Assembly (NCBI GenBank): GCA_028866275.1
Contig: JAGWIK010000012.1
Coordinates: 1-64,000, forward strand
DNA length: 64,000 nucleotides
Direction: 5' to 3'
Origin: Alphaproteobacteria bacterium
Lineage (GTDB): Bacteria > Pseudomonadota > Alphaproteobacteria > UBA9219
Shown here: one piece after another, positions 786 to 21,453 of the stretch
Numbering within the stretch: the first letter of the stretch is position 1
Layout: the number at the start of each line of letters is the position of its first letter
The notes under the pieces: model-generated
Databases searched by the model: none
Told to the model about the DNA's origin: nothing
Seen by the model: only the letters and a program-made list of their open reading frames with translations
Made by a program: the position numbers and the translations under genes

Positions 786-3431
786 ATGAGCGCCGCCGCC
801 GCCGGACCGAAAAAACAGACGGGTTGCGCCAATAATGCGCTGTTTTTAATGCCTGCCATGCTTTTGGGGCTGGCGGCCGCGCCCGCCTTTGCCGACGACA
901 ACATCACCGGCACCGTCGCCAGCCAGACGCTGGGGACGGGCGTGAACCTGACCGTCGAGAGCGGCGGTCTTATCTCCGACACTTCCTCTGCGAATGGCAT
1001 CAACGTAGTCGGCAGCCCCGCAGGCACGATCACAATCGGCAGCGGCGGCGAGGTCACATCGACCAATCATGGCATTGATATGAGGATCGGCTATTCGTCG
1101 GGCGCGATCACTGTTAATGGCACAATTAACTCCACGCTGCGCGGCATGGAGATTCTGGGGACGGTCGACGGCGGCATCTCCAATACGGGCGATGTTTACG
1201 GCGGCGGCCACGGCATCGAAATCACGAATAACGGTATCGTTAACGCCAACGGCAGCAATCAGGCTATCTACAATAGCGGCACAATTCAGGGCGGCACGAC
1301 TTTCGGAGATTCATCGGGCGTGCGTTTCGACGCGGCGCAGATCAACGGCAATATCGTCAATGCCAGCGGCGGCACGATTAAGGGGGGCGATTACGGCGTC
1401 AACCTGCAGGACTCGACGACCCTCAACGGCAGCATCCTCAACACGGGGAGCATCACCGGCACCGCGCTTGACGGCATCCTTGTTACCGGCCCTTCGACAA
1501 TCAGCGGCTCCATCACCAACAATGGCTCTATTTATGGCGGGGAAAACGGCATTACCGTGCAGGGCGCGTCCCATACCGGCAACATAGACAATTCCGGCAC
1601 CATCACCGGCGCCGCTACGGGGGTGAGCATCAACGCCAGCACCGTGGGCACCATCACCAATAATGCCGGGGGGAAAATCAGCGGCACCAGCTATGCGGTC
1701 AATATCACAAGCCCGGCATCCTCTGTCACCTTTAATAATTACGGCGAACTGGACGGCGCTATCAAGATTCAGGACACCATCTTGAATCTCGACAGCGGCA
1801 CCGTGGCCGCAGGGACTATCGGTGGCGCGGGTGGCATCGTGAATATCAACACCGGTCTCAGCACTACTTCCGATTATGGCGTGGCGGACGGGGCGTTAAG
1901 CCAGATCAATATCGCGTCGGGCCGGACTTTCTCGGCCATGGCCAACAATACCTTCGCCGCGACAACTTTTACCAACAACGGCACCTTCGGCATTAAAAGC
2001 GGCAACACCGTTACCGCCAGCGGCAACTATACGCAATCCTCGTCCGGCACCCTCAGCATCGGCGCGACGTCTGCTTCGAATTACGGCAAACTAAGCATCA
2101 GCGGCACCGGCACATTCGCATCCGGAACCGGCATCTATGTCAATGTCGCCAACAGCAATACGCTGAAGAATGGCGAAAGCCTTTTGAGCGTCGTCTCGGC
2201 GGGCACGCTGGACGCCAGCACTTTCAGCGTTACCGACAATAACGCGCTGGTCGATTTTACATCGCAGATCACCGGCAATCAGGTTAACCTCGTCGCGCAT
2301 GTGGCGACCCTCCAGCAGATCGTCAACCGGCAGGGCAATGCTGCGGCCGGTGGCGCGGGCGGCGCGCTCGATCAGATCATCGCCGGTAATCCCGGCGGCG
2401 ATATGAACAACGTCGTCAACACGCTGACCTCGCTCGGTTCGCAACAGGCCGTTTCCAAGGCCGTAAGCCAGACCTTGCCGGTGCTGACGGGCGGTTCGAC
2501 CACGGCCATCATGCAGACGATGGACACGACCAGCCAGATCATTCAGGCGCGGCAGGAAGAAAATCTCGGCCTCTCGTCGGGCGACGATTTCGTGACCAGC
2601 AATCAATGGTGGTTCAAGCCTTTCGGCACATGGTCGAACCAAAGCGACAAAAACGGCGTCACCGGCTTCGGGGCCGACACTTTCGGCATGATCGGCGGCG
2701 CGGACGGCGTGGTGTCCGACAACTGGCGGCTTGGCGCCGCTTTCGCCTATGCCAACAGCAATATCAACAGCAATGACGGGCTGAACGGCCTCGATGTCAA
2801 CAGCTATCAGGGCATCCTTTACGGCAGCTATCGCATCGATCCGAAAACAGAAATCAATCTTCAGGCCGATTCCGGCGTCAACGCCAACGACAGTTCGCGC
2901 ACGATCAATTTCGGCGGGCTTGACCGCATCGCCAAGGGCAATTTCGACAGCTATGCCTTCCATCTGGGCGCGGGCATCGGGCATACCTATGACGTATCCG
3001 ATATGCTGGACGACACCACGCTGACGCCTTCGGTGCGGGTCGATTACGGCCTCATCGCCAACGACAGTTATACCGAAACCGGCGCGGATGCTTTGAATCT
3101 GCATGTGAATTCACAGACCACCAATCAATTCATTCCGGCGATCGGCGCGAAGTTGAATCATGACTTCGCCAAGGGGGTTTCGGGGGCTGTCGATGCGGGT
3201 CTGGGTTATGATACGCTGAATGGTCGGAACTCTGTGACATCCACCTATGTCGGCGGCGGCCCCGCTTTCACGACCGATGGATTGACGCCATCGCCGTGGG
3301 TCGTTCGCACAGGCCTTGGCCTGACTTATAAACCCGACGACAGCTATGACATGACCCTGCGTTACGACCGCGAGGATCGCGGCGGGTTTGATTCCCAGAC
3401 CGCTTCGTTGAAACTCCGCGTTCCATTCTAG
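786..3431 (+). CDS. Type V (autotransporter) outer-membrane protein
   Basis: This 881-residue protein has a signal peptide (hydrophobic core about residues 18-34, cleavage likely after AFA at 34-36). A passenger at about 37-600 is made of degenerate Gly/Asn/Thr/Ser-rich repeats of roughly 20-25 residues (variants of NxGxIxG), as expected for a right-handed beta-helix. The last 265 or so residues are an autotransporter beta-domain with alternating amphipathic strands, ending in RVPF with the terminal Phe recognised by the BAM machinery. The passenger is exported through the barrel and is likely surface exposed; its role (adhesion, autoaggregation) cannot be read. No protease catalytic motif was seen. 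The gene appears to be monocistronic. Confidence 0.88.
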
Positions 3432-7639: not shown

Positions 7640-8788
7640 ATGTCCAAGCCAAGTATATTGATACCTGTCGGATTGCCCGGAGCCGGTCTTCACGGCGTTG
7701 GTTTTGTTCCGTGCAGGGGAAGCGACGCCACGCATCAAAAAATCGAGATGTTGGCTCAGGCCATGCGCGGTCTCGATATGGATGTGGCGGTGGCGCCCAT
7801 CGATGCCGCCGCGTCTTATCAGAAAGTGGATATGGTGATTTTTCCGCTGGCTGCCGATACGCTCGACTCCCCGGCCGCGTTCCGGGATGTGGAGAGGCTT
7901 TATCATATCCCCGCCGGTTTGCGCGTCGGATTGGTGGGGGGAAGTTTTGAAGCCCTGAACTGGCCGCGCCGGGCAGGAACGGCCAATGATAATATGGCCG
8001 CCGATCATGATGCGGGCCTGATTCCTCCGCTCGATGCGATGGTTGTTCTCGGCGACGAACGGCTGGTCAAATTGCCCGCCGCCGTTTGCCGCCGGATGGG
8101 CGCGGCCCATATACATTTTGTCGGCTATGCGTCACGGGATGATTGGGCGGGCATATCGCCGCCGCAAAGCCGGATCGGGGCTGCGCCCGCGCCGGTTATT
8201 GTACATGCCGACAACCCCGATGTCATGGCGGCGGTCGCCGAGGCCTGGCCTTCGACACAGATGGGGCTCATAGGCCGTCCCTGGCATTTTCTTTTCAGGG
8301 ACGCACCGGATCATTCATCCGCGCACAGGTGGTTGCGGCTCGCGTTCGAAATCAGCCGCGACCGCGTAGAAGCACAGCGGGCTGCGTCCGGCTGCTCGTT
8401 TCAGGATGAGCTGAGGGGGGCGTCGAGAGACGAGTTGCGCGACCTGTTGCGCCGCGCCGCGCTTTCAATTTCTTCGGCGGAGCCTGAACGCATCAAGGAC
8501 GCCCTTGCCGCCGCGCGCGTTCGCAGACAGGGCCGTCCTTTGTTGATGCCGGTTGACGCGGTACAGCGCCAATATTGCGCGCAGCTGCAAAAATTGGAAG
8601 CTGCGGCGGTTGTGGGCTTTGAACCGAGAAAGAGAGATTTGGCCGCCGCGATCGATCGCGCATTCGACAGCGCATTCGATACTGGCCCCGCTGTGCCGGT
8701 TCGTTTTGCCACGGTTGAAGACGTCGCCGGATTCTTGCGCGACATGGGCCGCGCAAGACTGCCCAAACCGAGGATGGCGCAGCCATGA
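7640..8788 (+). CDS. Hypothetical protein, 382 aa
   Basis: This protein is not recognised. The N-terminal half shows alternating hydrophobic strands and Gly turns (SILIPVGLPGAG, DMVIFPLAAD, LRVGLVGGSF, AMVVLGDERLV), suggesting a Rossmann-like alpha/beta fold. The C-terminal third is helical and rich in Arg, Glu and Ala. A TANDN element occurs near residue 115. A GGAGGG ribosome site supports the start. Its TGA overlaps the next gene's ATG by four bases (ATGA), so it is translationally coupled to the glycosyltransferase-sulfotransferase fusion and may act in the same surface modification. Confidence 0.65.
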   Translation: MSKPSILIPVGLPGAGLHGVGFVPCRGSDATHQKIEMLAQAMRGLDMDVAVAPIDAAASYQKVDMVIFPLAADTLDSPAAFRDVERLYHIPAGLRVGLVGGSFEALNWPRRAGTANDNMAADHDAGLIPPLDAMVVLGDERLVKLPAAVCRRMGAAHIHFVGYASRDDWAGISPPQSRIGAAPAPVIVHADNPDVMAAVAEAWPSTQMGLIGRPWHFLFRDAPDHSSAHRWLRLAFEISRDRVEAQRAASGCSFQDELRGASRDELRDLLRRAALSISSAEPERIKDALAAARVRRQGRPLLMPVDAVQRQYCAQLQKLEAAAVVGFEPRKRDLAAAIDRAFDSAFDTGPAVPVRFATVEDVAGFLRDMGRARLPKPRMAQP

Positions 8789-10320
8789 CCGGGAACAACA
8801 ACATCAAAACATCGGGTGTAATTGCCATGTCTAAATCCACGCTTCCCCGCATCGCCTTCTGCACCACCTGCAAAGGCCGCGCCCACCATTTGGCCAAAAC
8901 ATTGCCGCAGAATATGCGCAACAATGCCGATTATCCGAATGCCGTCTTTGTCGTGCTTGATTACAACAGTACCGACGGTCTTGGCGATCATATGCGCCGC
9001 ACTTTTGCGGCCCCAATGGCAAGCGGAAGGCTGGCCTATTATCACAATCCGGAACCGCAGCAATTCCATATGGCGCATGCCAAGAATATGGCCGCCCGTG
9101 CCGGGATTAGGGAAGGGGCAGATGTTCTTGTTAATCTCGACGCCGACAATCTGACGGGCGCCGGATTTGCGTCATATGTTGCCGAGGAATTCATACGCGC
9201 GCACGAATCCGAAGACGCCATTTTCCTGAGAGCGGGCGAGAATCATGAAGGGCCCGGTGGCGGTGTAAGCACAAAAATGCCGCAAGGGTGCGGCGGCAGA
9301 ATTGCCATCACGGCACATGCCTTCATGTTGACCGGCGGATATGACGAAGACGAAGCGTTCCGGCGCTGGTCGCCAGATGATAAGGATTTTGCTCTACGTC
9401 TGACTAATCTTGGTTTTGTGCGGCATGGCATGCCGGATCGGTTTAAGAAAGCGATTGGGCATAGTCAGGACTCGCGGCTGGCCGGATATGACATGCTCGA
9501 CAGGCAAAATATGGGGGAAATATTCCACTCCATTATGGAGGGGCGTCAAAATATGACCGTTGCCAACAATGGCCGAATGGGAATGGGCGTCGTCTACAAG
9601 AATTTTGATCCAGATCCTATTATGTTTGACGCTCTGCCCACACGCATATTCGGTGTCGGGATGCACAAAACGGCAACGACCTCCCTGGCTGCCGCTTTGG
9701 GAATTCTGGGATACGACACGGCCCATTGGGAGTCGCCAAGATGGGCGTTCAGAATCCATAGAGAGATGACGGCGCAGGGTCGGTCGCCTATGTTGGAACG
9801 GCATTATGCGCTGTGCGACCTTCCTATGCCTCTTCATTTTAAGGCGCTTGATAACGCCTATCCCGGTTCCAAATTTATTTTGACAACAAGGGATGAAGAA
9901 CCATGGCTGCAAAGCGTCCGCAATCACTGGCAAAGATATAGGAAAAAATGGGACAGGGACGGCTATTCGCACAAAATCCATGAAGCGCTTTATGGCCGCA
10001 CGGATTTTGACGAAGATGTTTTCCGTGCGCGTTATCGGGCGCATAACGAAGCGGTTATGAAACATTTTATGGGCCGTCCCGGCGATCTGGTCGTCATGAA
10101 TATGGATAGAGAGGCTGGGTGGCCGGAATTGTGCAGGTTGCTGGGACGTGCCATGCCCGGGCAACCTTACCCAAGAAAATTTGTTACGCCGCAACCGGAA
10201 CCGCAACCAAAACCCCAATGGAAACCGGCGGCGGCGGTCACGGTGCAAAGATCCGTTCCACCCCGCCCCGCCAACACGAACCTTCCCGCACCAAAGGAAA
10301 AAAACGTCCGCCCCGGTTAA
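8785..10320 (+). CDS. GT-A glycosyltransferase fused to sulfotransferase-like domain
   Basis: This 511-residue protein has two domains. Residues about 20-270 form a GT-A fold glycosyltransferase: IAFCTTCKGR at the start, VVLDYNSTDG, the metal-binding VNLDADN (Asp119 and Asp121), and an RRWSPDDKDFALRL acceptor-side segment. Residues about 288-470 start with IFGVGMHKTATTSL, a PAPS-binding 5'-phosphosulfate loop, and continue as a Sulfotransfer-type domain with ILTTRDEEPW as the likely 3'-phosphate region. The last 40 residues are Pro/Gln/Lys rich. It may glycosylate and sulfate one acceptor. An internal Met at residue 15 is an alternative start, but the 4-base overlap with the preceding gene favours 8785. 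Confidence 0.8.
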   Translation: MTGNNNIKTSGVIAMSKSTLPRIAFCTTCKGRAHHLAKTLPQNMRNNADYPNAVFVVLDYNSTDGLGDHMRRTFAAPMASGRLAYYHNPEPQQFHMAHAKNMAARAGIREGADVLVNLDADNLTGAGFASYVAEEFIRAHESEDAIFLRAGENHEGPGGGVSTKMPQGCGGRIAITAHAFMLTGGYDEDEAFRRWSPDDKDFALRLTNLGFVRHGMPDRFKKAIGHSQDSRLAGYDMLDRQNMGEIFHSIMEGRQNMTVANNGRMGMGVVYKNFDPDPIMFDALPTRIFGVGMHKTATTSLAAALGILGYDTAHWESPRWAFRIHREMTAQGRSPMLERHYALCDLPMPLHFKALDNAYPGSKFILTTRDEEPWLQSVRNHWQRYRKKWDRDGYSHKIHEALYGRTDFDEDVFRARYRAHNEAVMKHFMGRPGDLVVMNMDREAGWPELCRLLGRAMPGQPYPRKFVTPQPEPQPKPQWKPAAAVTVQRSVPPRPANTNLPAPKEKNVRPG

Positions 10321-10340: not shown

Positions 10341-10817
10341 ATGTCTGTCATTTTGTTCGTCGATCACGAACTGACGATACACGAATTTCTGCCTTATGCC
10401 GCGCAGCGTGCCGGACATATTGTCTACAGAGCCGACAGCATCGCGGCGGCATTGGAGCATTTTTCCCGCTATAGGCCCGATCTGATCGTTATCAGCGACC
10501 GCCTGCCTGGTAATGAAATCCCGGACAAAGGCGGTTTCGAGCTGGCGCGCCGCGCCGGTCTTCTCGGTTTCGAGAGCGGCAATATCATCATGCTCAGCGA
10601 TATCGGGGTCAAGGACATGATGTTGTTGAAAGACATGCTCGGCGAAGCCGGCCTTGACGGCGTGCATTTCTGTCAGATCAGGGCCGGCTATCTGCCTTTC
10701 CTGCGTACTATGCAAAATATTCTTGGCGTTTCGTCCGGCGTTGCGCAGCCTCTTTCCTGTCTCGATCCCTTTACCCGATCTGATCTCCTGCAAAACCGTA
10801 AATCACCATGGGCGTGA
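10341..10817 (+). CDS. Degenerate response-regulator receiver protein
   Basis: This 158-residue protein has a CheY-like pattern: ILFVDHE for strand 1 and the acidic pocket, PDLIVISDRLPG for strand 3, and IIMLSD for strand 4. Aligned on the LP that follows the phosphorylation site, the acceptor position is Ser with an Asp one place later. The usual Lys before the final strand turn is not evident (HFCQIRAG). It is therefore probably a pseudo-receiver that binds a partner without normal phosphorylation. No output domain follows. AGGAAAGGA upstream supports this start. A second receiver fragment lies 48 nt downstream. Confidence 0.65.
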   Translation: MSVILFVDHELTIHEFLPYAAQRAGHIVYRADSIAAALEHFSRYRPDLIVISDRLPGNEIPDKGGFELARRAGLLGFESGNIIMLSDIGVKDMMLLKDMLGEAGLDGVHFCQIRAGYLPFLRTMQNILGVSSGVAQPLSCLDPFTRSDLLQNRKSPWA

Positions 10818-10940: not shown

Positions 10941-13289
10941 ATGACCGCGCAATCAACCTGTTCCCCATCATTTGCGACGACAGCTGCGACCGTGGCCTAT
11001 CCGCCGGGATCCACTATCGTCGATCAGGTATTCAAAACGCTGGCGCGCGAAGCCGGCTATGCCGCCGGCCTTTTCGAATTCACCGGCATCGGCAACGACA
11101 ATGAACAATATTTCGATAAAGACGCGCACCCGGAGTCCGAAGTTATCAAACATCTGGTTGCGCTCGGCACCGCCGTTCTTCTCAATCGGTATCGTGGTCT
11201 CGGCTTGTGGTACAAGCCTGAATCTATTACCAGCGGATTGCTGGCGCACGAAGTCGCCGACGGGATCAATCAGGGCCGCCGTGCCGCGGGGCGTGGCGAT
11301 CTTATCCCGTCGACCTATGACCTTGGTTCCAGAATCGGCAAGGATCGTTTGCGCCACGAAGTGATAGGTCCCAACCGTTTTGTCAATCTGATGCGTTCCC
11401 ATCACGCGCAGAAATTAATGCCTTATGTCTATCTGGTTGTGCCGTTGATGCTGGAAAGCGCGGTGCGCGAACTGGTCAACAATCCCGCGCTCAGCGGCAT
11501 GCAGGAGTATGAAGAAGAAGCCTTTATGCTCGAATGGCGTATGGTTATTCGTCATTGCCGCGGCATGCTGGTCGATGGCGATCCCAGATTCTCGCGCAAT
11601 TCGATTTGGGAAGTCGTGGAAGGCGTGCTGATTCAAGCCGGATTGATGCCGCCGCGCCCCGAGGCCGACATGGACATTCTTGATGCCAATCTCAGGCCCA
11701 TGACCCTGCTTGACCATGCGCGGGATATGGCCGAATGCCTGCGCTATCAGCTCGGCAAGGGGTTCGAGCCGCGCGAGGCCGCCAGCGCTTTGGCGATGTT
11801 TCGTACGATCGACGTTATGTTGCGTGCGAATGATCCGCGTCTTGCGTACGCCAACGCGGCGCTGCGCGACCGTCCGCCTGTCGAATTGGCGGCGATGGAC
11901 GATTTATATGAAGAAATCGATTCGCTGATTTGCGCCTATGCCGCAGGCTGGCTGCGCGACCCCGATGATCTGCTGCCGCTTTACGGCGCGGCTTATTATG
12001 CGGCCCGAAAACGCGAAATGAAGACGGGCGATCTTCATCGGCCTTTAAGCGCCGGCGTGCGGCGCGAGATGAAAAAATATGCCAACGATGTGGTTAAGCG
12101 CAAAGGCGCGATTGTCCGCGGCAAGCTTAGCGACGAAAACCGCTTTCTCTCGAACCATACACAGACGCCGAACCAGCGCCGCTTTGATCCGGATAATGCG
12201 CCCTTTGCGCCGTGCTGGCACGCCGTTATGTTCGAAGACAAATTGTTCGACCGGTTGCAAGCGTGGGAACAAGCGGTTCTGCCGTTTATCATCGGCTATG
12301 CGGAGGCCGTGCAATATCCCGCCGAAGAACCAATGGCGACCATGATCATTGCCGATTTGAAAGGCGGTGAAGCTGCCGCCCAAGCCGCCGCCGAACGCGG
12401 CGTTACCGATATCAATGAATTGCACGGCGTCATGGGGCGCAGCGCGCGCATGATCGAAAGGGCCAATCGTGCATGGGTCGAAAAGACCGAACACGACCTT
12501 ATTAACGACAGGCCCCATCGCGTTTTTATCAGCACGCTTGATCTGCTTCATGACGCGAAACTCATCGACATGTTCCGCAAAGCCTGCCCGAGTTTCATTA
12601 TGGCGCGCGGATCCAATGCAACCAGCCCGTTGTTCCGCCTCGTTTACGCGATGAAAACCCTCGAACGCAACGCCGACGAAGCGATTTTCCAGAAAGGCTG
12701 GGAACATCGCGATTATACGGTGCAGTTGCGGGTGCATGCGCGCCTGATTCAGGCGGGATTGATCGACCGCCCCATCACGGGGGGCATCGCGCTTCAGGTC
12801 TATACTGGCGATAATAAGAATGCACAGGATTCCATGCTGGTCGATGTGTCGGCTTTGACGCGCAAGCTGGAAAAATGCGCCGCCGCCGGTGTGCGCGCTC
12901 CCGAACAGGCATTGGCGCTGATCCGGTTGCTGGCGCTTGACGATCTGATCGTCGATACCCGTCTGGGCGAGGGCGCGGTCAGGATCGACCCCCATGCCGG
13001 TTGCGTCAGCTGGATGGATTATGACAGCGATGCGTTTCTGAAAATACGCGCCCGCGCCATGGATGTGTTGGCGGCGCGCCCCGAATTATGGGCGGTGGAT
13101 CGTGAACGGCTGGTCGCCGAAGCGGGCAAAGACGACGCGCCGCCGCGGCAGCAGGCGATCAAGGTTCAGAACCGGCTTATGGAAAAATATATGCGGGCGA
13201 TGGAGGCCGGATCAGGGCGGCAGGCAGTGCGCAAGGCGCGGCCGGGGATAAGAGGCAGGGCGCATGTTTTTAACGGTCCTCAACAATAA
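10941..13289 (+). CDS. Large unknown protein, first gene of the giant-nuclease triad
   Basis: This 782-residue protein matches no family I know. It is mostly charged and helical, with no signal peptide or transmembrane segment. Acidic and aromatic patches such as EYEEEAFMLEWRM and a late WMDYDSDAF are notable; no nuclease, ATPase or helicase motif was found. A GNDNEQ element near residue 52 echoes the NDN motif of its neighbours. Its stop is 11 nt before the next start, which has a strong AAGGAGGT ribosome site, so it shares an operon with the RNase J-like and ExoI-like genes. A scaffold, RNA-binding or regulatory subunit of a nuclease complex is plausible but unproven. Confidence 0.7.
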   Translation: MTAQSTCSPSFATTAATVAYPPGSTIVDQVFKTLAREAGYAAGLFEFTGIGNDNEQYFDKDAHPESEVIKHLVALGTAVLLNRYRGLGLWYKPESITSGLLAHEVADGINQGRRAAGRGDLIPSTYDLGSRIGKDRLRHEVIGPNRFVNLMRSHHAQKLMPYVYLVVPLMLESAVRELVNNPALSGMQEYEEEAFMLEWRMVIRHCRGMLVDGDPRFSRNSIWEVVEGVLIQAGLMPPRPEADMDILDANLRPMTLLDHARDMAECLRYQLGKGFEPREAASALAMFRTIDVMLRANDPRLAYANAALRDRPPVELAAMDDLYEEIDSLICAYAAGWLRDPDDLLPLYGAAYYAARKREMKTGDLHRPLSAGVRREMKKYANDVVKRKGAIVRGKLSDENRFLSNHTQTPNQRRFDPDNAPFAPCWHAVMFEDKLFDRLQAWEQAVLPFIIGYAEAVQYPAEEPMATMIIADLKGGEAAAQAAAERGVTDINELHGVMGRSARMIERANRAWVEKTEHDLINDRPHRVFISTLDLLHDAKLIDMFRKACPSFIMARGSNATSPLFRLVYAMKTLERNADEAIFQKGWEHRDYTVQLRVHARLIQAGLIDRPITGGIALQVYTGDNKNAQDSMLVDVSALTRKLEKCAAAGVRAPEQALALIRLLALDDLIVDTRLGEGAVRIDPHAGCVSWMDYDSDAFLKIRARAMDVLAARPELWAVDRERLVAEAGKDDAPPRQQAIKVQNRLMEKYMRAMEAGSGRQAVRKARPGIRGRAHVFNGPQQ

Positions 13290-13300
13290 GGAGGTAGTAA

Positions 13301-16300
13301 ATGAGTGAAGGGAATTCCCTGACTCTTTCGAAAAAATACTTCCTGACCCAGCTTGGGTTCGACCACGACTCCGCCGCTAATGGCTGGCCCTCCACGATTA
13401 AACTTGCCGTTGGCGGCGTTGATCCGCGTACGCGCGGCGCGGTGGCGGTTTCTTCCGAACTAACCTACAACGCCGCCGCGCAGCGCATCGAATTGACCAT
13501 AGATCGCTGGCGCATGCGCCCCAACGGCGAACAGTTGCGGCACAATTTGTTTCAATTCACTTTTGTCGAAGCCGCCAACGATAGCATTGTGCCGCAATCT
13601 CTGTGGGTGATGGGGCGGCCGCTTTACGATGCCGGACGCGACGGCGACCCGCTGGCGGTTTCGGCGGGCGTAATGCGCAACGTCGCGACGGGCCGTTCGG
13701 CCGCCAGCTACATCATCCGTGCGCTGCGCCGCGATGAATTGCCCGAAACCGCCAGAATATTCCGGGAAACCGGCCTGCCCGAAGCGATGGGCGAGAATCT
13801 GCCTTTGGTCGGGCAGAGCACGAATGGCGGTTTCGATTTCGACGTGTTCGAAGCTTATGCCAAACCCGCCAATGACGATTTAATCCTGCCCGCCGATATG
13901 GCCAGAGCCTTGCTGGGGGAAGACACCAACAGTATCGATGCGCATCAACGTCTGGGGCGGGAACGCATCACCACTGCCGTTCATCCGCAAAACCGCAGCG
14001 AATTCGCCGCGCGTTATGTGGCAGCCAATGACAATGACGGCGAAAGCGGCGCAGTGGCCAGTTCGATCACCATCGAACCGATCGCCATCCCTGACGATAT
14101 GCGCGCCGTCGCCATTCCCGAATTCTCGTCGATGAGGTTGGAGCCGTCAAGCAACGACAATCGCCGCATTTTGCAGGAATTCAAATTTCTCGGCGTCGAT
14201 ATCCTACGTGTCGATCACGATTTGCGCATGAAGGTCATTGGCGTGGTCAACCGCGCCAAGCAGGCGTTACGCCGTCGCGATTATCCGCGCATTCTGGATT
14301 ACGCCGCCGAATATGATTTGCTGGGCTGGATCGATGCCGTCAATGCCGCCGATCTCGCCGATCCGCCGCCGCCCGAAGGGCGCATGGTGGTGGAATCGAA
14401 AGGCGGCAACAACACGGCCGACGATATCGCCGAAGGATACAGCCACCAGCCCAACGGCAATTGTAAAGTCATCGAGATGCAGTGGCTCGATCGGGAAGGT
14501 CGGCTGCGCCATGTCGGCGCGCTTCACGATATCGGTCTGTTCCTGCCGCCGCATGATGTCGCCAATGAAGGCGCCGTCGCCGATGTCGTCGAGGAACTGG
14601 CTTATATTCGGGATATCTTTCTGACGCATCGCCATCTCGACCATATTGACGGCGCCATTCCTTATATCGCCAAGGGTTATTTCAAGGGCAAAATTATTCA
14701 CGCCGCGCCCGAAGTCCTTCGGGCTTTGCGCGAAAAACTCAACGCATTCGAAATCCCCGCTGAATATCATCCGGCCTATGATGCGCTTCAGGGTCGCGGC
14801 TGGGTGCATATTAAAGATGACGACGGCATTGTCCGGTTGTCCGTCGGTTACAGCGTCGACGGCACGCCGCATACCGCGCGTTCCACGCCTTTCATCTATG
14901 TGGCGCGCAATGGCTCCGAAGTCATTGACAGCTATCTTAACCCGGGTGACATGCGTTTCGGCCGCCACAATGCCGAAGGCTATCGGGGATTCAAGCCTGA
15001 CGCCGATTATCTCGACAAATATTTTTTCCAGCATTGGCAGGAATTATTGCTGGCCGACGATCCCTCGATCGACGCCTCGGTATTGCAGTTTCCCACACTG
15101 CGCATGGATATCGACGGCACCTCGATCCGCAAACCCGGTTTCGCGCCGACCGACTGGGAATGCGAAGAAAATCAATACGAATTATTCGAGGTTCTGAACG
15201 ATATTCTGCCCGGCCGGTTAAATGCCGTTGGCCAGATCAGCACCAATGAAATGGGGTTTGAACATCGCTTGCGTCTGGCCACGCGCTTGGGCCGCGACGT
15301 CACCGCATCCGGCGCCAATATGGAACGAACGGCACGCACCGCCAACGTCATGGGGGTCAACAAATTGCGGGTCGAAGTGCAGAAGACTAAAAACAATCAA
15401 GCCTATCTTGATTACGTTTTCCGTCAACGCATTGATAAACGCTTGCGGGATTTGCGGTCGCAAATAGATGGAACCGCTGAAGGTAAGGAAAGAACGAGGC
15501 TTGAACGCGAATGGGCGGTTGAAACGCGCGTCCTGGATTATTTTGAGCAATTGTGCCTTGTCAAACAGTCCAATCGCCGTTTTGAGATGCGTGATAAGCT
15601 TGAAGCCGCGTTTGCCGGGGAATACGGCGAACACCGGCATCTCGGGTCTATCTATACGGCTATTGCCGCGAAATCCTCGCGCCGCATGCTGCGCCAGCCG
15701 GAATGCTGGTTGACGCTTGAAACCGGAACGCAAGGCACCAATGTTGAAATCGATTCCAGCATGTCAAAGCGGTCTTACGGCGCATCGCGTTTCGATATGC
15801 CGGCCGGCAGCAAGCCGAGCGCGCGCCCCATTCCGCCGCAGAAAACCATTTTATGTTTGTCGCAGGTTGCCATTCCCGGTAATGACAAAAAACAGCGCGA
15901 TCTGGTTTCCCGCCATGTCATGCGCGGCTATGCCGTTGTGCTTGCCACGCATGATGGTTATGAAATCCACGGGCTTTCCCTCCATGATATGAACCGGGTT
16001 TTCCGGGCGTTGAATGCCATCGGCCACGGCGCGGAAATAGAAAACGATGCGTATCTTAAAATAAACGGCAGGCCAATTCACGCTCCCGGCCACGGTTTCG
16101 CGGGGGATACGGAAGAATGGCTCAGGCTGGTCAAACCGATTTTCCCGATGCTGCAACATACCGGCGACCCGCTGGCCTTCCCCGAACTTCGCGAAATGTC
16201 GATGAAGATTCTGGGCCGCACCGCTTATTATTTCGATAATTTCTGTCGCGTGACGACGCAAAGAACGGATGATGCGTTGGGCTGGCTGGTTAAAACCATG

Positions 16301-16699
16301 GGGCGTTCGTGCCCGTCGATTATCCGCTTCATTATCGATCGCAAATCGCGCGAATATCACGGCGGCCATATCGAAGCCGAACGCATCACTAACATGAACG
16401 GCGCGGCAAGCCACCGCCATGACGGATTCATGGCGTCGGTCACGCGTGACGGTGTCTATCGCCGCCAGTTTGCCACCCTCGACGGCGAAGCGGCGCGACG
16501 GCGTGCGGCGCTGCGCAAGGGTGCGCCGCCGCAACCTGTCGCCTACAACCGAAAAGCGCCCGCTCCTGAACAACGTTATCGCGGCCCCGACCGCCCCGGC
16601 GCGCACAGGCGCAATCTGCCGATGAAACCCGGCGCGCGGTTGCGCCTGACGCCGGGTGATTATCTGAAGCTGTTAAAATTATCGGGGCCGAAGCCATGA
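13301..16699 (+). CDS. Giant RNase J-like metallo-beta-lactamase/beta-CASP protein
   Basis: This 1132-residue protein has an RNase J-type core at about 390-960. The metal motif THRHLDHIDG gives His443, His445, Asp447 and His448. GTPHTARSTP supplies His524 (RNase J motif 3), and PGDMRF supplies Asp550 (motif 4). The beta-CASP part follows: ISTNEMG plus LGRDVTASGANMERTAR, then ETGTQG near 807, VAIPGND, and APGHGF with His931. All metal ligands expected of an active enzyme appear present. It differs from the usual length of about 550 by a 390-residue N-terminal extension, a basic insertion at about 690-790, and a basic C-terminal tail. It overlaps the next gene by 4 nt. RNA 5'-end nuclease activity is inferred. 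Confidence 0.8.
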   Translation: MSEGNSLTLSKKYFLTQLGFDHDSAANGWPSTIKLAVGGVDPRTRGAVAVSSELTYNAAAQRIELTIDRWRMRPNGEQLRHNLFQFTFVEAANDSIVPQSLWVMGRPLYDAGRDGDPLAVSAGVMRNVATGRSAASYIIRALRRDELPETARIFRETGLPEAMGENLPLVGQSTNGGFDFDVFEAYAKPANDDLILPADMARALLGEDTNSIDAHQRLGRERITTAVHPQNRSEFAARYVAANDNDGESGAVASSITIEPIAIPDDMRAVAIPEFSSMRLEPSSNDNRRILQEFKFLGVDILRVDHDLRMKVIGVVNRAKQALRRRDYPRILDYAAEYDLLGWIDAVNAADLADPPPPEGRMVVESKGGNNTADDIAEGYSHQPNGNCKVIEMQWLDREGRLRHVGALHDIGLFLPPHDVANEGAVADVVEELAYIRDIFLTHRHLDHIDGAIPYIAKGYFKGKIIHAAPEVLRALREKLNAFEIPAEYHPAYDALQGRGWVHIKDDDGIVRLSVGYSVDGTPHTARSTPFIYVARNGSEVIDSYLNPGDMRFGRHNAEGYRGFKPDADYLDKYFFQHWQELLLADDPSIDASVLQFPTLRMDIDGTSIRKPGFAPTDWECEENQYELFEVLNDILPGRLNAVGQISTNEMGFEHRLRLATRLGRDVTASGANMERTARTANVMGVNKLRVEVQKTKNNQAYLDYVFRQRIDKRLRDLRSQIDGTAEGKERTRLEREWAVETRVLDYFEQLCLVKQSNRRFEMRDKLEAAFAGEYGEHRHLGSIYTAIAAKSSRRMLRQPECWLTLETGTQGTNVEIDSSMSKRSYGASRFDMPAGSKPSARPIPPQKTILCLSQVAIPGNDKKQRDLVSRHVMRGYAVVLATHDGYEIHGLSLHDMNRVFRALNAIGHGAEIENDAYLKINGRPIHAPGHGFAGDTEEWLRLVKPIFPMLQHTGDPLAFPELREMSMKILGRTAYYFDNFCRVTTQRTDDALGWLVKTMGRSCPSIIRFIIDRKSREYHGGHIEAERITNMNGAASHRHDGFMASVTRDGVYRRQFATLDGEAARRRAALRKGAPPQPVAYNRKAPAPEQRYRGPDRPGAHRRNLPMKPGARLRLTPGDYLKLLKLSGPKP

Positions 16700-19600
16700 A
16701 AAAACGCGCGCAAAAGCCCTTGATTGACAGCGCATATTTGCAAAGCCTGCATCGGGCCGAAGATATCGGGCACCGGCTGTCGACAGGGCAATTGCTCGCA
16801 ACCGGCTATGATCTGGAAATGACCGATCTCGACCGGCTGTTTGCTTTTCCCACTCATTTTGCCGCTATATTGACCGGTATTGGTGGGCGCATTCTTGACA
16901 GCATCGACGTCAAGCCGCGCGTGCCCGAATGGGTCGTTGAGGCGCCGGCCGCCGCCGTGATTGTGCAAGCCTCGCCGCAGGAAATTCATTATGGCGAAGA
17001 CCGCGACCCGCCGCATATTGCAGCCGGAAAAATCGCATTCTGGTTTCGCACGCTCTATCGCCGCCTGTGGGACGCGCTGGACGATGAAAAAGAGCAAATC
17101 GCCTTGCAGGACGGCAAGACGGAAGAAGTCCGTCTCTATAAAATCCGCGACAAGGACGGACGAGTCCATATTTTTCGCCTGCATGATCAGGGAAAATGGT
17201 TGTCGATGCGCATCGCCGATGGGGTTCCGGACGATGGCCATGTTTACCGCGATGCCGGCAGGGGAAACGAAAAAGGCGCGCGCTGGAAAAAAATCGCGCC
17301 GCCGGCCATGGCCGGCGGGTTCAATAATATCCGCGCCGATGACATGTGGCTCATGACGCTGGCCTTCATGACCGGCAATGCCGACATCATTGTTTCGTAT
17401 CTCAAGAAAAACCGCCTGTTTCGCGTCGATGTCCGCGCCATCACGCGGGCGGCCGCGACGCTGAATATCAGGGGCGAGAACGGCATTCAGGCCGCCTATA
17501 CCATTAATCCTGCCACCGGACAGCGCTATGTTTCCTCGCGCCTGAGCGATTTGATGCTGGCCAACACGCATCGCGCCAATCCCGGGCGCGGGCTGCAAGA
17601 AGGCATCCGCATGCCAGACGGATCATTTTACGAAGAACGGCTTGGCCACCAGAACCCGCTTTACGATGTGCTGGCGACTGAATCCCTGCTGGCATATAAC
17701 CGCTGGCATGATCCGGAAGTGGTGGCGCAATTCGAAAAAAACGCCGATCTGGAAAAATTAAAAAACTTCCTGATGGGCAATGACGGGTTCAATCCGCATC
17801 CGCTGCGCCTGTTTTTGCGTTCGGTCTATCCCGACCTGCAACAGGCGAATATCGGTATTTGCGCCGTTCTGGGCGAGGAAATCAAGGAAAGGCAGCAAGG
17901 GCTTTTTATCCGCACCGACACCAACGCCGCATTGGCGGCGTATACATATCGCGGCAAGCATCTGCACGATATGGATGCGGATGAATGGCACGCTATGCTG
18001 ACCGAGCAGCGCGGCCAGCCCGATGCCTTGTGCGAAATTATTGATGTGCGCAAAAGCCCGGCGGTTTTCGAATCGTCATTGGGTTTTGCGCGCGGCTTGG
18101 GCGGCGACCCGGACTGGAACGAAACGGTCAACCGTAAATATCTGCTGGAATTGCTGGCCAATCCTGATATCCGTGCGCGCATCAAGAATGCGCTGGAACG
18201 AACAACGCCGGTTTTTTCCGGCGCGGACGATGTGCTGGCCCCGCGCGCCGAGGACCATATCTTTGAGCACTTCCGCGAACTTAAACGGCTTGATTCCGGC
18301 GCGCCGCATGGAAAAATTGTCAATAACGACGATGTCGACAGCCACGCCATGGAAACATTGCGTCGTGCGCGGGATATTCGGCGTACTTTGCTGCAAGCCA
18401 TGGAACCGGATCCGGTTGAATGGTTCGATGAACTGCCCGACGGATGGCGCAGGGAAACGGTGGAAAAATTCGCCGAGAAAATCACCAAGATCAAAAGCTA
18501 TCTGCGCCACCGCCAGACAGATTACGATCCCGAACCCGTGCAATTACCCGACCCGGACAATTCCTATCGCCTGGCGCACAAACGTGACGCGGAAGGCGCC
18601 CCGGTTGAACCCGACGACGAAGCCATACGGAAATGCGCTGATGCGGCGGTCGAATATCTGTGGAAAATGCGCGCCGCGCTGATGCATGCCGCTGACGATT
18701 ATTCGTTGAGTTTCCGCATCACCGATCGTCACGGTCACGAGGTGCCATTCGATGTTCTTGACAAGATGGACGAACATATAAGACGCAACAAGCTGGCCAA
18801 TGGCGAGTTCCGCCCGCGTTTTGAAAACCGCAATTATACCGCGGAAATCATCGCCCGCATGTTCGCGACCACACCCGGGCGCATGGAAAAAACCAAAGAA
18901 GATTTGCAAAAGACCCTGATCGTCGCCGACGCCGCAGGCGATGATAAAGGAAGCCGAATGTTGAGGGATGAATTGCGGGAATGGGACATGTGGGACGCGC
19001 ATTTCGACGCCGTCGCCGCTTTGCACCTCAACGGCCCTCCGCATGTCGATCCCGACGATCATCGCTGGATGAGCGCGCGCAAGGGGCAAAGAGTTATCGC
19101 GCGTATCAGGCGCAATCTCAGGCTCGGGCTTGACGTCCGCGCCGACGCTGGCCAGCTGGGCCTGTGGGAAATCCTGATGACCGATCGCGACAAGAGCGAA
19201 CAAATTCTCGATGCGCTCGCCAAACATTATGATGCCATGCTGGAAAAATACCCCCTGACGGCCGAACGGCTGGACATGATGGGTTATGGCGTCGACGGCT
19301 GGCCTGTCGAGCATATCAAATATACAATTCCCGCCGGTGGGCCTGTGATTCTGGTCGATGTCGCCGATGCTTTTCTCGACCAGCCCCTGCATCATATCGA
19401 CGAAGGCAGTTATCTGGTTCCCGTCGCGACGGCGGATGCACCCGGGTTGCGTGCAGCGATGGCCGTTCTCGACGCCCATGTGTTGCTGCGTGGCCGCGAA
19501 AGCGGCCGCGTGTGCTATGCCGCCCGCGCCAAGATTATCGACGCCATCAAGCCGTCGCCGCATTATAATGTCCTTTATGAGGAAGCGCGCAGCCGCACCG

Positions 19601-20433
19601 CGGATTCCGGCGCGGCATTTCCGTCGAATGATGATCTTCTTTGGCTTAAAATGGAACAAAAGCCGATCGACGCGCCCTTGTCTTTGCGCGCGCCGGAAAC
19701 ATCCGCGCAAACGATCAAGATACGGCAGCGCGATCTTTTCGATGCCACCGTCAGCGAAGTTCTGGGCCGCCGCGCGCGCCTTGTGACCGGGCTTGTCTTC
19801 AAAGATGAAGGTTTCACGCCGCACACGGGCAGGGCGCGGTTGCAGGAAATGAGGCCGAAGAAAAAAGAACCGGCCGCGGCCAACGATAATAGGGCCAGTG
19901 ACGACAGTGCAGGCGCGCCGCGCTGGGTCGAAACCGGATGGGAACGCGCGGCGGAAATAACGACAGCCCGCAGCTATACGTGCGTCGAATTCCAGAACAT
20001 CGTCAGACGGTCGCTGAAATTGCGGCGGCTGGCTGCCCGACTGGGGCTGGACAACATTGATGCGTTGAGAAATTATGTCGTCAACGCGAGCACCGCGCAT
20101 GAAGCCGGGTTCAAGAATCTGGCGCAGGCGAGGCATGAACTGGACGCGCCGCATTTCACGCACGAAGACGCCTTGGCCTGCGGTCATCATAGCCTTGAAG
20201 ATATGGCGAAAAAGACGGCGTTGCTTTTTGTCGAAAATGACCGGAATCCGAATGCCGAAACCGGCATCGTGCATGTGGTGTTTTTCAAACAGGTGGCGCG
20301 CGATGCCACGACCTATTTCCGTCCTGCCGAACGTCACAAGGTGGAACGTCTGATGGCCGGGTTCGATCGTCCATTGACGGAACAGGGGCGCAAAAACTTA
20401 TGGGCGAATGCGGGCAAGGTGTTGAGACTGTAA
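16696..20433 (+). CDS. Giant exonuclease I (SbcB)-like DEDD exonuclease
   Basis: A 1245-residue protein. Residues about 37-570 follow E. coli ExoI by eye: YDLEMTD (Asp39, Glu41; motif I), FAAILT, ASPQEI, NNIRADD (Asp215 or 216; motif II), FRVDVRA, RLGHQNPLYDVLAT (Asp324; motif III), RKSPAVFESSLGFA, ANPDIRARI and a later HFRELKRLD. In motif III the His (318) sits one residue further from the Asp than the usual HxxxxD, so activity needs testing. There is an insertion of about 75 residues before motif II and an unrecognised C-terminal extension of about 650. ExoI degrades single-stranded DNA 3'-5'. The start overlaps the previous stop (ATGA), implying coupled translation. Confidence 0.72.
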   Translation: MKKRAQKPLIDSAYLQSLHRAEDIGHRLSTGQLLATGYDLEMTDLDRLFAFPTHFAAILTGIGGRILDSIDVKPRVPEWVVEAPAAAVIVQASPQEIHYGEDRDPPHIAAGKIAFWFRTLYRRLWDALDDEKEQIALQDGKTEEVRLYKIRDKDGRVHIFRLHDQGKWLSMRIADGVPDDGHVYRDAGRGNEKGARWKKIAPPAMAGGFNNIRADDMWLMTLAFMTGNADIIVSYLKKNRLFRVDVRAITRAAATLNIRGENGIQAAYTINPATGQRYVSSRLSDLMLANTHRANPGRGLQEGIRMPDGSFYEERLGHQNPLYDVLATESLLAYNRWHDPEVVAQFEKNADLEKLKNFLMGNDGFNPHPLRLFLRSVYPDLQQANIGICAVLGEEIKERQQGLFIRTDTNAALAAYTYRGKHLHDMDADEWHAMLTEQRGQPDALCEIIDVRKSPAVFESSLGFARGLGGDPDWNETVNRKYLLELLANPDIRARIKNALERTTPVFSGADDVLAPRAEDHIFEHFRELKRLDSGAPHGKIVNNDDVDSHAMETLRRARDIRRTLLQAMEPDPVEWFDELPDGWRRETVEKFAEKITKIKSYLRHRQTDYDPEPVQLPDPDNSYRLAHKRDAEGAPVEPDDEAIRKCADAAVEYLWKMRAALMHAADDYSLSFRITDRHGHEVPFDVLDKMDEHIRRNKLANGEFRPRFENRNYTAEIIARMFATTPGRMEKTKEDLQKTLIVADAAGDDKGSRMLRDELREWDMWDAHFDAVAALHLNGPPHVDPDDHRWMSARKGQRVIARIRRNLRLGLDVRADAGQLGLWEILMTDRDKSEQILDALAKHYDAMLEKYPLTAERLDMMGYGVDGWPVEHIKYTIPAGGPVILVDVADAFLDQPLHHIDEGSYLVPVATADAPGLRAAMAVLDAHVLLRGRESGRVCYAARAKIIDAIKPSPHYNVLYEEARSRTADSGAAFPSNDDLLWLKMEQKPIDAPLSLRAPETSAQTIKIRQRDLFDATVSEVLGRRARLVTGLVFKDEGFTPHTGRARLQEMRPKKKEPAAANDNRASDDSAGAPRWVETGWERAAEITTARSYTCVEFQNIVRRSLKLRRLAARLGLDNIDALRNYVVNASTAHEAGFKNLAQARHELDAPHFTHEDALACGHHSLEDMAKKTALLFVENDRNPNAETGIVHVVFFKQVARDATTYFRPAERHKVERLMAGFDRPLTEQGRKNLWANAGKVLRL

Positions 20434-20484
20434 GCAAGCGGAAACCAAATATCTGTAACAACCTTCAACCGACAGAGGATGTCT

Positions 20485-21453
20485 ATGACCGATCATGTTG
20501 TTCAACCAAGCCGTGAATCCAAAAATTTATTTTCATTGCCAGAGGGCGGATCGATTGTTTTTGATTTTGACGATGTCTTTTTCCCTTCCGACAACGGTAC
20601 GCACGCGCGGATTAAGGCGTTAATTACGCAGAGCGTCATTCGGGATTTGGGTGATAAATCCATTCTGGCCACGCGGGACGCCCACGGGCATCTTCCATAC
20701 TTCCCGCAATATGTTCTGTATAAATACATTGAAACCGGTCGCGACGCCGACAGCCCGGAATTTATCGAAGCGATGGAAAAATGTTATTTTGGCGACAATG
20801 GAGGCGACCCGGAACATTACAGGAATATCGGCCCGGCTCCGGAACTGTACGAGCAGTTGTCGCGCCTTCAAAGCGAAGGCGTCAATTTTGTTATTTTGAC
20901 AAGCGGGCCATACAACCCCCATGTGCAACGTGTTCTTGCCCGATTATCGACCGAGCGGGAAAACATTGAAGCCTTCTTTCCGCGTGAAAATATTTACGAT
21001 ATTACGCGGATGTGCGCCCTTTACGATGACGTGTCGCTCGATGACTTTCAAAATCCTACGCATGAAAAATTGCTTCGCTGGTTGAAACCTCAAAGGGAAA
21101 ACTACCTTGCCATGATGCATCAGGCGGGCCTTCAACCCGGGGTCAATCTTTATTTCGAGGATAACGATGTCAATGGCAGCAAAGGCAGCACGGCAGCGCC
21201 GATGCCTGAAGGATCTCTGTGCGCCTTTGCGGGCAAGTTCGGGCTGACTTCTGAACAGGCGGCCGATCTTGCCTGCTTATCCGATGCCTGGGGGTGGATT
21301 AATCTCGCAGGCAAGAAACTTCGCGATGGCAGCAGGCCGCCCGCACTTGAAGTGGCGAATGTGGTTGATGCTCTAAAGCTGGTTCGCGGCGGTCGGCCCC
21401 ATGCGCTCGCGCCAAAAATTGCGCGAGGCAGCATGCCCATCTGCCCGTATTGA
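20485..21453 (+). CDS. HAD-superfamily hydrolase
   Basis: A 322-residue protein. Motif I is FDFDDVFFP, motif II VILTSGP, a Lys is available in THEKLLRWLK, and motif IV is YFEDNDVN. The layout recalls pyrimidine 5'-nucleotidase-type HAD enzymes, but the cap region is unusual and the substrate is unknown. The start at 20485 is preferred over the ATG six bases earlier because GACAGAGG is then correctly spaced. It follows the ExoI-like gene by 51 nt and may be the last gene of that transcript; a nucleotide phosphatase after two nucleases would make biochemical sense, but this is inference. Confidence 0.7.
   Translation: MTDHVVQPSRESKNLFSLPEGGSIVFDFDDVFFPSDNGTHARIKALITQSVIRDLGDKSILATRDAHGHLPYFPQYVLYKYIETGRDADSPEFIEAMEKCYFGDNGGDPEHYRNIGPAPELYEQLSRLQSEGVNFVILTSGPYNPHVQRVLARLSTERENIEAFFPRENIYDITRMCALYDDVSLDDFQNPTHEKLLRWLKPQRENYLAMMHQAGLQPGVNLYFEDNDVNGSKGSTAAPMPEGSLCAFAGKFGLTSEQAADLACLSDAWGWINLAGKKLRDGSRPPALEVANVVDALKLVRGGRPHALAPKIARGSMPICPY

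Follow-up and report, generated by a model that had tools for sequence, protein, structure and literature searches.

A large RNase J-like protein encoded beside, and elsewhere fused to, an exonuclease I relative in Alphaproteobacteria

What would a bacterium with a normal-size RNase J do with a second RNase J-like protein of twice the length? The question is raised by a 64,000-nucleotide stretch of alphaproteobacterial DNA (hereafter the window), in which one open reading frame, here called J, had been read from the sequence as an oversized RNase J with intact metal ligands. The frame does span 1132 codons from an ATG, and the motifs lie at the residues named by that reading, i.e., H443-R-H445-L-D447-H448, H524, D550, ISTNEMG at 646, TGTQG at 808, IPGND at 858 and H931 within PGHG (929), to which further RNase J positions can be added (D410, D605 of beta-CASP motif A, and H953). 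The proposed insertion near 690-790 and the basic tail were both recovered, with slightly shifted limits for the insertion; a long part precedes the core as claimed, only that the core starts near residue 353-360 and not after 390 residues. J is followed by a gene that we call Y and preceded by one that we call X; loci where J and Y are separate genes are termed split, and those where a single chain carries both are termed fusions. The layout of J is as follows:

13301-16699, plus strand: J, 1132-aa predicted metallo-beta-lactamase (MBL)/beta-CASP nuclease, RNase J-like (open reading frame with ATG, model, structure matches, residue alignment)
13301-14356, plus strand: J residues 1-352, strand-rich conserved N-terminal region that is not in RNase J (aligned in relatives, strands in the model)
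14357-16330, plus strand: J residues 353-1010, MBL/beta-CASP core (range of the VIA-align match to RNase J)
14627-14644, plus strand: HRHLDH metal ligands, J residues 443-448 (all four kept in 7/7 split J and 10/10 normal RNase J rows)
15395-15700, plus strand: J residues 699-800, helical basic insertion, pI 9.7 (alignment, model, composition)
16331-16696, plus strand: basic tail of J (residues 1011-1132), of pI 11.2 and modelled with low confidence (model, composition)

Fold, active site and lineage of J

Sequence profiles alone barely detect J: it matches Pfam Lactamase_B_2 at 1.6e-4 and an RNase J1 model at 0.0028, and reaches 12.8 bits on TIGR00649, below the curated cut-off of 400 bits. 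The fold call comes from structure prediction and overlay on RNase J, as had been suggested for this protein. In the AlphaFold model (mean pLDDT 59.5) most of the core has values of 70-90, with values under 50 throughout the tail and in some stretches of the insertion. RNase J structures took the top 32 places when this model was compared with the PDB by Foldseek (best E 9.4e-15), and ranks 1-24 when the core was aligned with VIA-align (Z 21.4, 3.6 Å, 401 residues), whereas archaeal and eukaryotic beta-CASP proteins of the CPSF type reached a Z of at most 18.4. Since both methods put RNase J first, we consider it firm that the modelled J has the MBL and beta-CASP fold of the RNase J type. The structural alignment ends near residue 1010, before the low-confidence tail, and an RNase J C-terminal domain is not seen in it.

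The active site was followed in an alignment of 30 rows (seven split J including that of the window, 13 fusions, and 10 normal-size RNase J, two of them identical). H443, H445, D447, H448, H524 and D550 are present in all seven split rows; H931 and H953 occur in 6/6 readable split rows, 13/13 fusions and 10/10 RNase J rows, and D605 in 6/7, 12/13 and 10/10, respectively. In the window protein, all RNase J metal and catalytic positions (D, HxHxDH, H, D, motif A, GH, H) align with each of the 10 RNase J rows, and by alignment to solved RNase J the named residues would meet at one metal site. Foldseek, VIA-align and the active-site alignment together rule out that the motifs are chance matches. 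At the D447 position one fusion has an unread residue. A separate observation is that two related fusions, G866 and G867 (loci L091 and L090), carry Glu at the position of the first metal His, i.e., H443 (2/13 fusions); their J site is perhaps altered or inactive, and their DEDDh site is intact.

With the same fold and motifs, J could simply be an elaborated form of the housekeeping RNase J, an explanation that we regard as ruled out by a normal RNase J elsewhere in the genome and by the separate tree branch, found in few relatives, on which J lies. The host assembly, of 2.19 Mb in 78 contigs and with a listed completeness of 100%, was checked for a normal-size RNase J, as had been advised, and does encode one of 561 aa (G000:C45), which scores 398.6 bits on TIGR00649, slightly below the cut-off of 400, and has its HxHxDH motif at position 82 instead of 443; J is thus an extra protein of a separate lineage. 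In an unrooted tree of the core, six split J form their own branch (100/97) apart from normal-size RNase J, and the J parts of the fusions form another (88/89). The seventh protein counted as split J, of 834 aa (G101), has a long branch that was placed with normal RNase J, and the split branch is given without it. This protein (L054:333-2837, minus strand) is RNase J-like with HxHxDH intact and unsure in its placement; it lies on a contig of 4542 bases (4.5 kb), on which no Y is visible beside it. The sequence-only reading had described a heavily elaborated RNase J. The elaboration stands, and the implied enlargement of an ordinary RNase J does not, given the separate branch, the 12.8 bits against a cut-off of 400, and an N-terminal region of ~350 residues that is itself conserved across the J family.

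A probable partner of J: neighbour or same chain

The same reading also suggested a specialised substrate or partner for J. It missed the probable partner encoded directly downstream, a protein related to exonuclease I that occurs elsewhere in one chain with an RNase J-like part. The genes around J are these:

10941-13289, plus strand: X, protein of 782 aa with an internal duplication at E 2.8e-8 (third gene conserved in the J-Y loci)
16696-20433, plus strand: Y, DEDDh protein of 1245 aa that resembles exonuclease I, SbcB (4-bp overlap with J; hhalign, RTasSbcB match at 1e-5, residues)
20479-21453, plus strand: 324-aa HAD phosphatase, pyrimidine 5'-nucleotidase-like (TIGR01993 1.7e-7, 31.2 bits against a cut-off of 142.9; 45 bp after Y)

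The window Y has no match in Pfam or NCBIfam, including the exonuclease I model NF008746 (curated cut-off 260 bits). A profile of the six-row Y family nevertheless aligns with E. coli SbcB by hhalign colinearly over 335 columns (score 64, E 3.2e-7), against scores of at most 20.1 in 17 controls (one reversed, 10 shuffles and six other E. coli proteins). Y residues D39, E41, D215, H318 and D324 align with D15, E17, D108, H181 and D186 of SbcB and are kept in 6/6 Y and 13/13 fusions, and the PADLOC model of the reverse transcriptase (RT)-associated SbcB (RTasSbcB) matches the window Y at 1e-5. Profile comparison and PADLOC together identify Y as a predicted remote homologue of exonuclease I. The two proteins share the DEDDh residues and the colinear ~335 columns, but Y has 1245 aa and not 475, with a long C-terminal extension, and stays outside the curated family.

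A link between the two proteins is provided by another genome (G167, locus L053), where one chain of 1575 aa matches both the RNase J model TIGR00649 (2.4e-19, over residues 579-863) and the exodeoxyribonuclease I model NF008746 (3.7e-9, over residues 1099-1350; 35.7 bits against the 260-bit cut-off). It also matches the PADLOC RTasSbcB model and, weakly, RTasMBL. In another alphaproteobacterial order, 13 of the 142 genomes, from three families, carry such a fusion in open frames of 1542-1636 aa, and all 13 fusion regions are single open reading frames (1539-1610 aa). As J and Y are neighbours in one lineage and a single chain in another, it is very likely that they work together. The tree does not show the split and the fusion branches to be sisters, and the fused and split forms may be of separate origin.

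Gene order, spread and neighbourhood

J starts 11 bp after X and overlaps Y by 4 bp. J and Y are adjacent in each of the six split loci, with -4 to 58 bp between them, and X stands beside them clearly in five and weakly in one (G267), with two gene orders overall. G249 has X-J-Y as in the window, and so has G267, where the X match is weak (hhalign E 0.0017, probability 15%); G024 and G028 have J-Y-X with overlaps of 1 and 4 bp, and in G015 a J broken over two contigs is followed by Y and X. The two halves of X match one another at E 2.8e-8 with a score of 66, compared with at most 24.3 in 11 controls. None of five X members matches a Pfam family even at E up to 10, X has no match among PDB sequences, and its model has a mean pLDDT of 34.1; by eye, its repeat may resemble DUF4406/NDT-type Rossmannoid proteins.

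The gene set is patchy, J being present in 4/33 genomes of the host's order and in none of nine other genomes of the genus. A search of a phylum sample (398 genomes) returned the host genome only, and one of a class sample returned 13 of 385 genomes: three with a full-length split J (the host, G024 and G249), three with long, weak matches (G267, G167 and G101) and seven with only normal-size frames (502-612 aa). The fusion protein as query found, in the class sample, G167 itself and three genomes with normal-size frames. Scanning a contig collection with a single protein as query gave no match, and with the profile two loci, both being those of G024 and G015. Bit scores of the window proteins against G249, which belongs to another family, are 481 for J, 342 for Y and 165 for X, compared with 194-231, 65-117 and 50-85, respectively, against G015 (same family), G024 and G028 (same order), and the tree agrees on the closeness of the window and G249 (97/89 and 98/96). 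This history contradicts the taxonomy. As all three genes are closest to G249 and share its gene order, the pattern fits transfer as a unit, and differential loss could also have produced it. In an empty-site comparison with genomes of the same genus, G002 and G007 had in common with the window locus only the SDR and patatin genes and not the borders of the island.

One family of 5'-nucleotidases lies directly downstream on the same strand (-4 to 33 bp) in six of the 13 fusion loci and is missing from the other seven. The L053 member is of the cN-I type (PF06189 4.2e-37), the other five being assigned by blastp linkage, and a profile built from the six found no other match among the 362 open reading frames examined. 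The HAD phosphatase of the window is a possible accessory; it was not seen beside Y in the other split loci and is unrelated to the fusion-locus 5'-nucleotidase by hhalign (E 0.036). A deoC-like gene adjoins the G267 cluster (5.2e-6, 26.1 bits against a cut-off of 117.3), and beside the fusion of L053 lie a divergent RNase R (L053:11999-14182, plus strand; 188.9 bits against 597.85) and, after it, a 739-aa LOG-like protein (L053:14195-16414, plus strand; TIGR00730 4e-15, 56 bits against 96.35), to which X shows no relation (E 0.52). These neighbours are suggestive of a link to nucleotide catabolism.

Other genes of the window deserve a mention. Just upstream of X-J-Y, a 511-aa protein (8785-10320, plus strand) unites a weak glycosyltransferase-like part with Sulfotransfer_4 (1.1e-30), an unusual pairing. 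Directly before X, a 141-aa reading (10392-10817, plus strand) resembles a response-regulator receiver by eye, and no Pfam family matches it at 0.01; a true receiver gene lies near the Y of G249 (L050, 17553-17990). An 881-aa protein (786-3431, plus strand) appears autotransporter-like by eye, with a repeat-rich passenger and a beta-barrel end. By hhalign, a 382-aa gene of the window is unrelated to the 321-aa gene that precedes J in G024 and G028.

Possible roles of J and Y

We consider it reasonably probable that J and Y constitute a cytoplasmic nuclease of two polarities that reduces single strands of RNA and/or DNA to mononucleotides, the cytoplasmic place being assumed because no obvious signal peptide was seen by eye in J. 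J, with its RNase J-type two-metal site, would attack the strand from the 5' end and probably also internally, and Y, as an ExoI-type DEDDh exonuclease, would degrade it from the 3' end; X would be a structural or regulatory partner, and the mononucleotides released by J and Y together would be dephosphorylated by the attached 5'-nucleotidase in those species that encode one. If this two-polarity reading holds, J is very probably active as a nuclease and just as probably works together with Y, and salvage or turnover as the main role is a plausible case that falls a little short of even. The activity, polarity and substrate of the pair, the physical complex of the split form and the turnover or salvage role are all what we infer. 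More tentatively, the set may be an undescribed, horizontally moving shredder of Alphaproteobacteria, in which the RNase J-like and ExoI-like nucleases form one machine, as separate chains in one lineage and as one giant polypeptide in another. The machine would attack a shared strand at both of its ends and pass mononucleotides to a dedicated 5'-nucleotidase, with X as a gate that protects the RNA and DNA of the cell from the split form.

A mobile defence module, in which J, Y and X destroy phage or plasmid nucleic acid and X acts as sensor or switch, would account for the patchy presence, for the closeness of all three genes to those of another family, as expected for a transferred unit, and for the RTasSbcB match of Y. 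We think it unlikely, as PADLOC offers no match for J and a weak one for X (PDC-S44, 0.0016), and no relatives of J, Y or X were found in viral contigs, of J in phages or plasmids, or of Y in plasmids. The L053 fusion matched 7 phage and 14 plasmid records by its RNase J part only (<=38% of the query), so that no fusion was seen there. No recognised defence gene was identified among the neighbours covered by an unsystematic scan, and several fusion loci lie, by eye, among housekeeping-like genes. Defence-associated reverse transcriptase (DRT) systems, to which the PADLOC models RTasSbcB (matched by Y and L053) and RTasMBL (matched weakly by L053) belong, differ from the J-Y loci in sizes and architecture, and no reverse transcriptase was recognised in the part of the neighbours scanned at split and fusion loci.

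Somewhat less likely still is a pair that processes DNA ends in repair, with J as a 5'-3' single-strand DNA exonuclease in the role of RecJ and Y standing in for a missing exonuclease I. NF008746 has no match in the host genome, and SbcB acts as an exodeoxyribonuclease. Haloferax aRNase J is reported to belong to a 3'-5' nuclease complex that acts on RNA and single-stranded DNA and is linked to survival of DNA damage (PMC10470531). However, nearly all relatives are without J and Y and must repair their DNA otherwise, and the divergent RNase R beside L053 points to RNA instead. It is improbable that J is a specialised endonuclease of RNA maturation whose product is trimmed by Y, i.e., processing and not destruction. 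Internal cutting is described for RNase J as well (PMC10989914), and a choice of substrate could lie in the large extra N-terminal region and the basic parts, but the coupling with a 5'-nucleotidase in nearly half of the fusion loci suggests full degradation, and a gene set so patchy is unlikely to mature an essential RNA.

The components of the two-polarity nuclease are of known kinds. J has in common with RNase J (TIGR00649; PDB 5a0t, 4xww, 3bk1) the MBL/beta-CASP fold, metal ligands and motifs, and differs in its doubled size, extra N-terminal region, insertion and basic tail, in a structural match that ends without the C-terminal domain being seen, in scoring far below the family cut-off, and in being encoded with Y and X. 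What appears new is the combination of RNase J and ExoI as one unit, both as operon and as fusion; no such pair or fusion was found in searches of open-access full text in PMC. A precedent is the RecJ3/4-aRNase J complex of Haloferax, in which an RNase J is reported to be joined by a 3'-5' exonuclease (PMC10470531); that complex is archaeal, its 3'-5' partner is RecJ and not ExoI, aRNase J is essential, and it has neither a fusion nor an X. In bacteria, the J-Y pair would correspond to this archaeal association of RNase J with RecJ, and thanks to the single-chain fusions one purified protein would suffice to test directly whether two exonucleases of opposite polarity act on the same strand.
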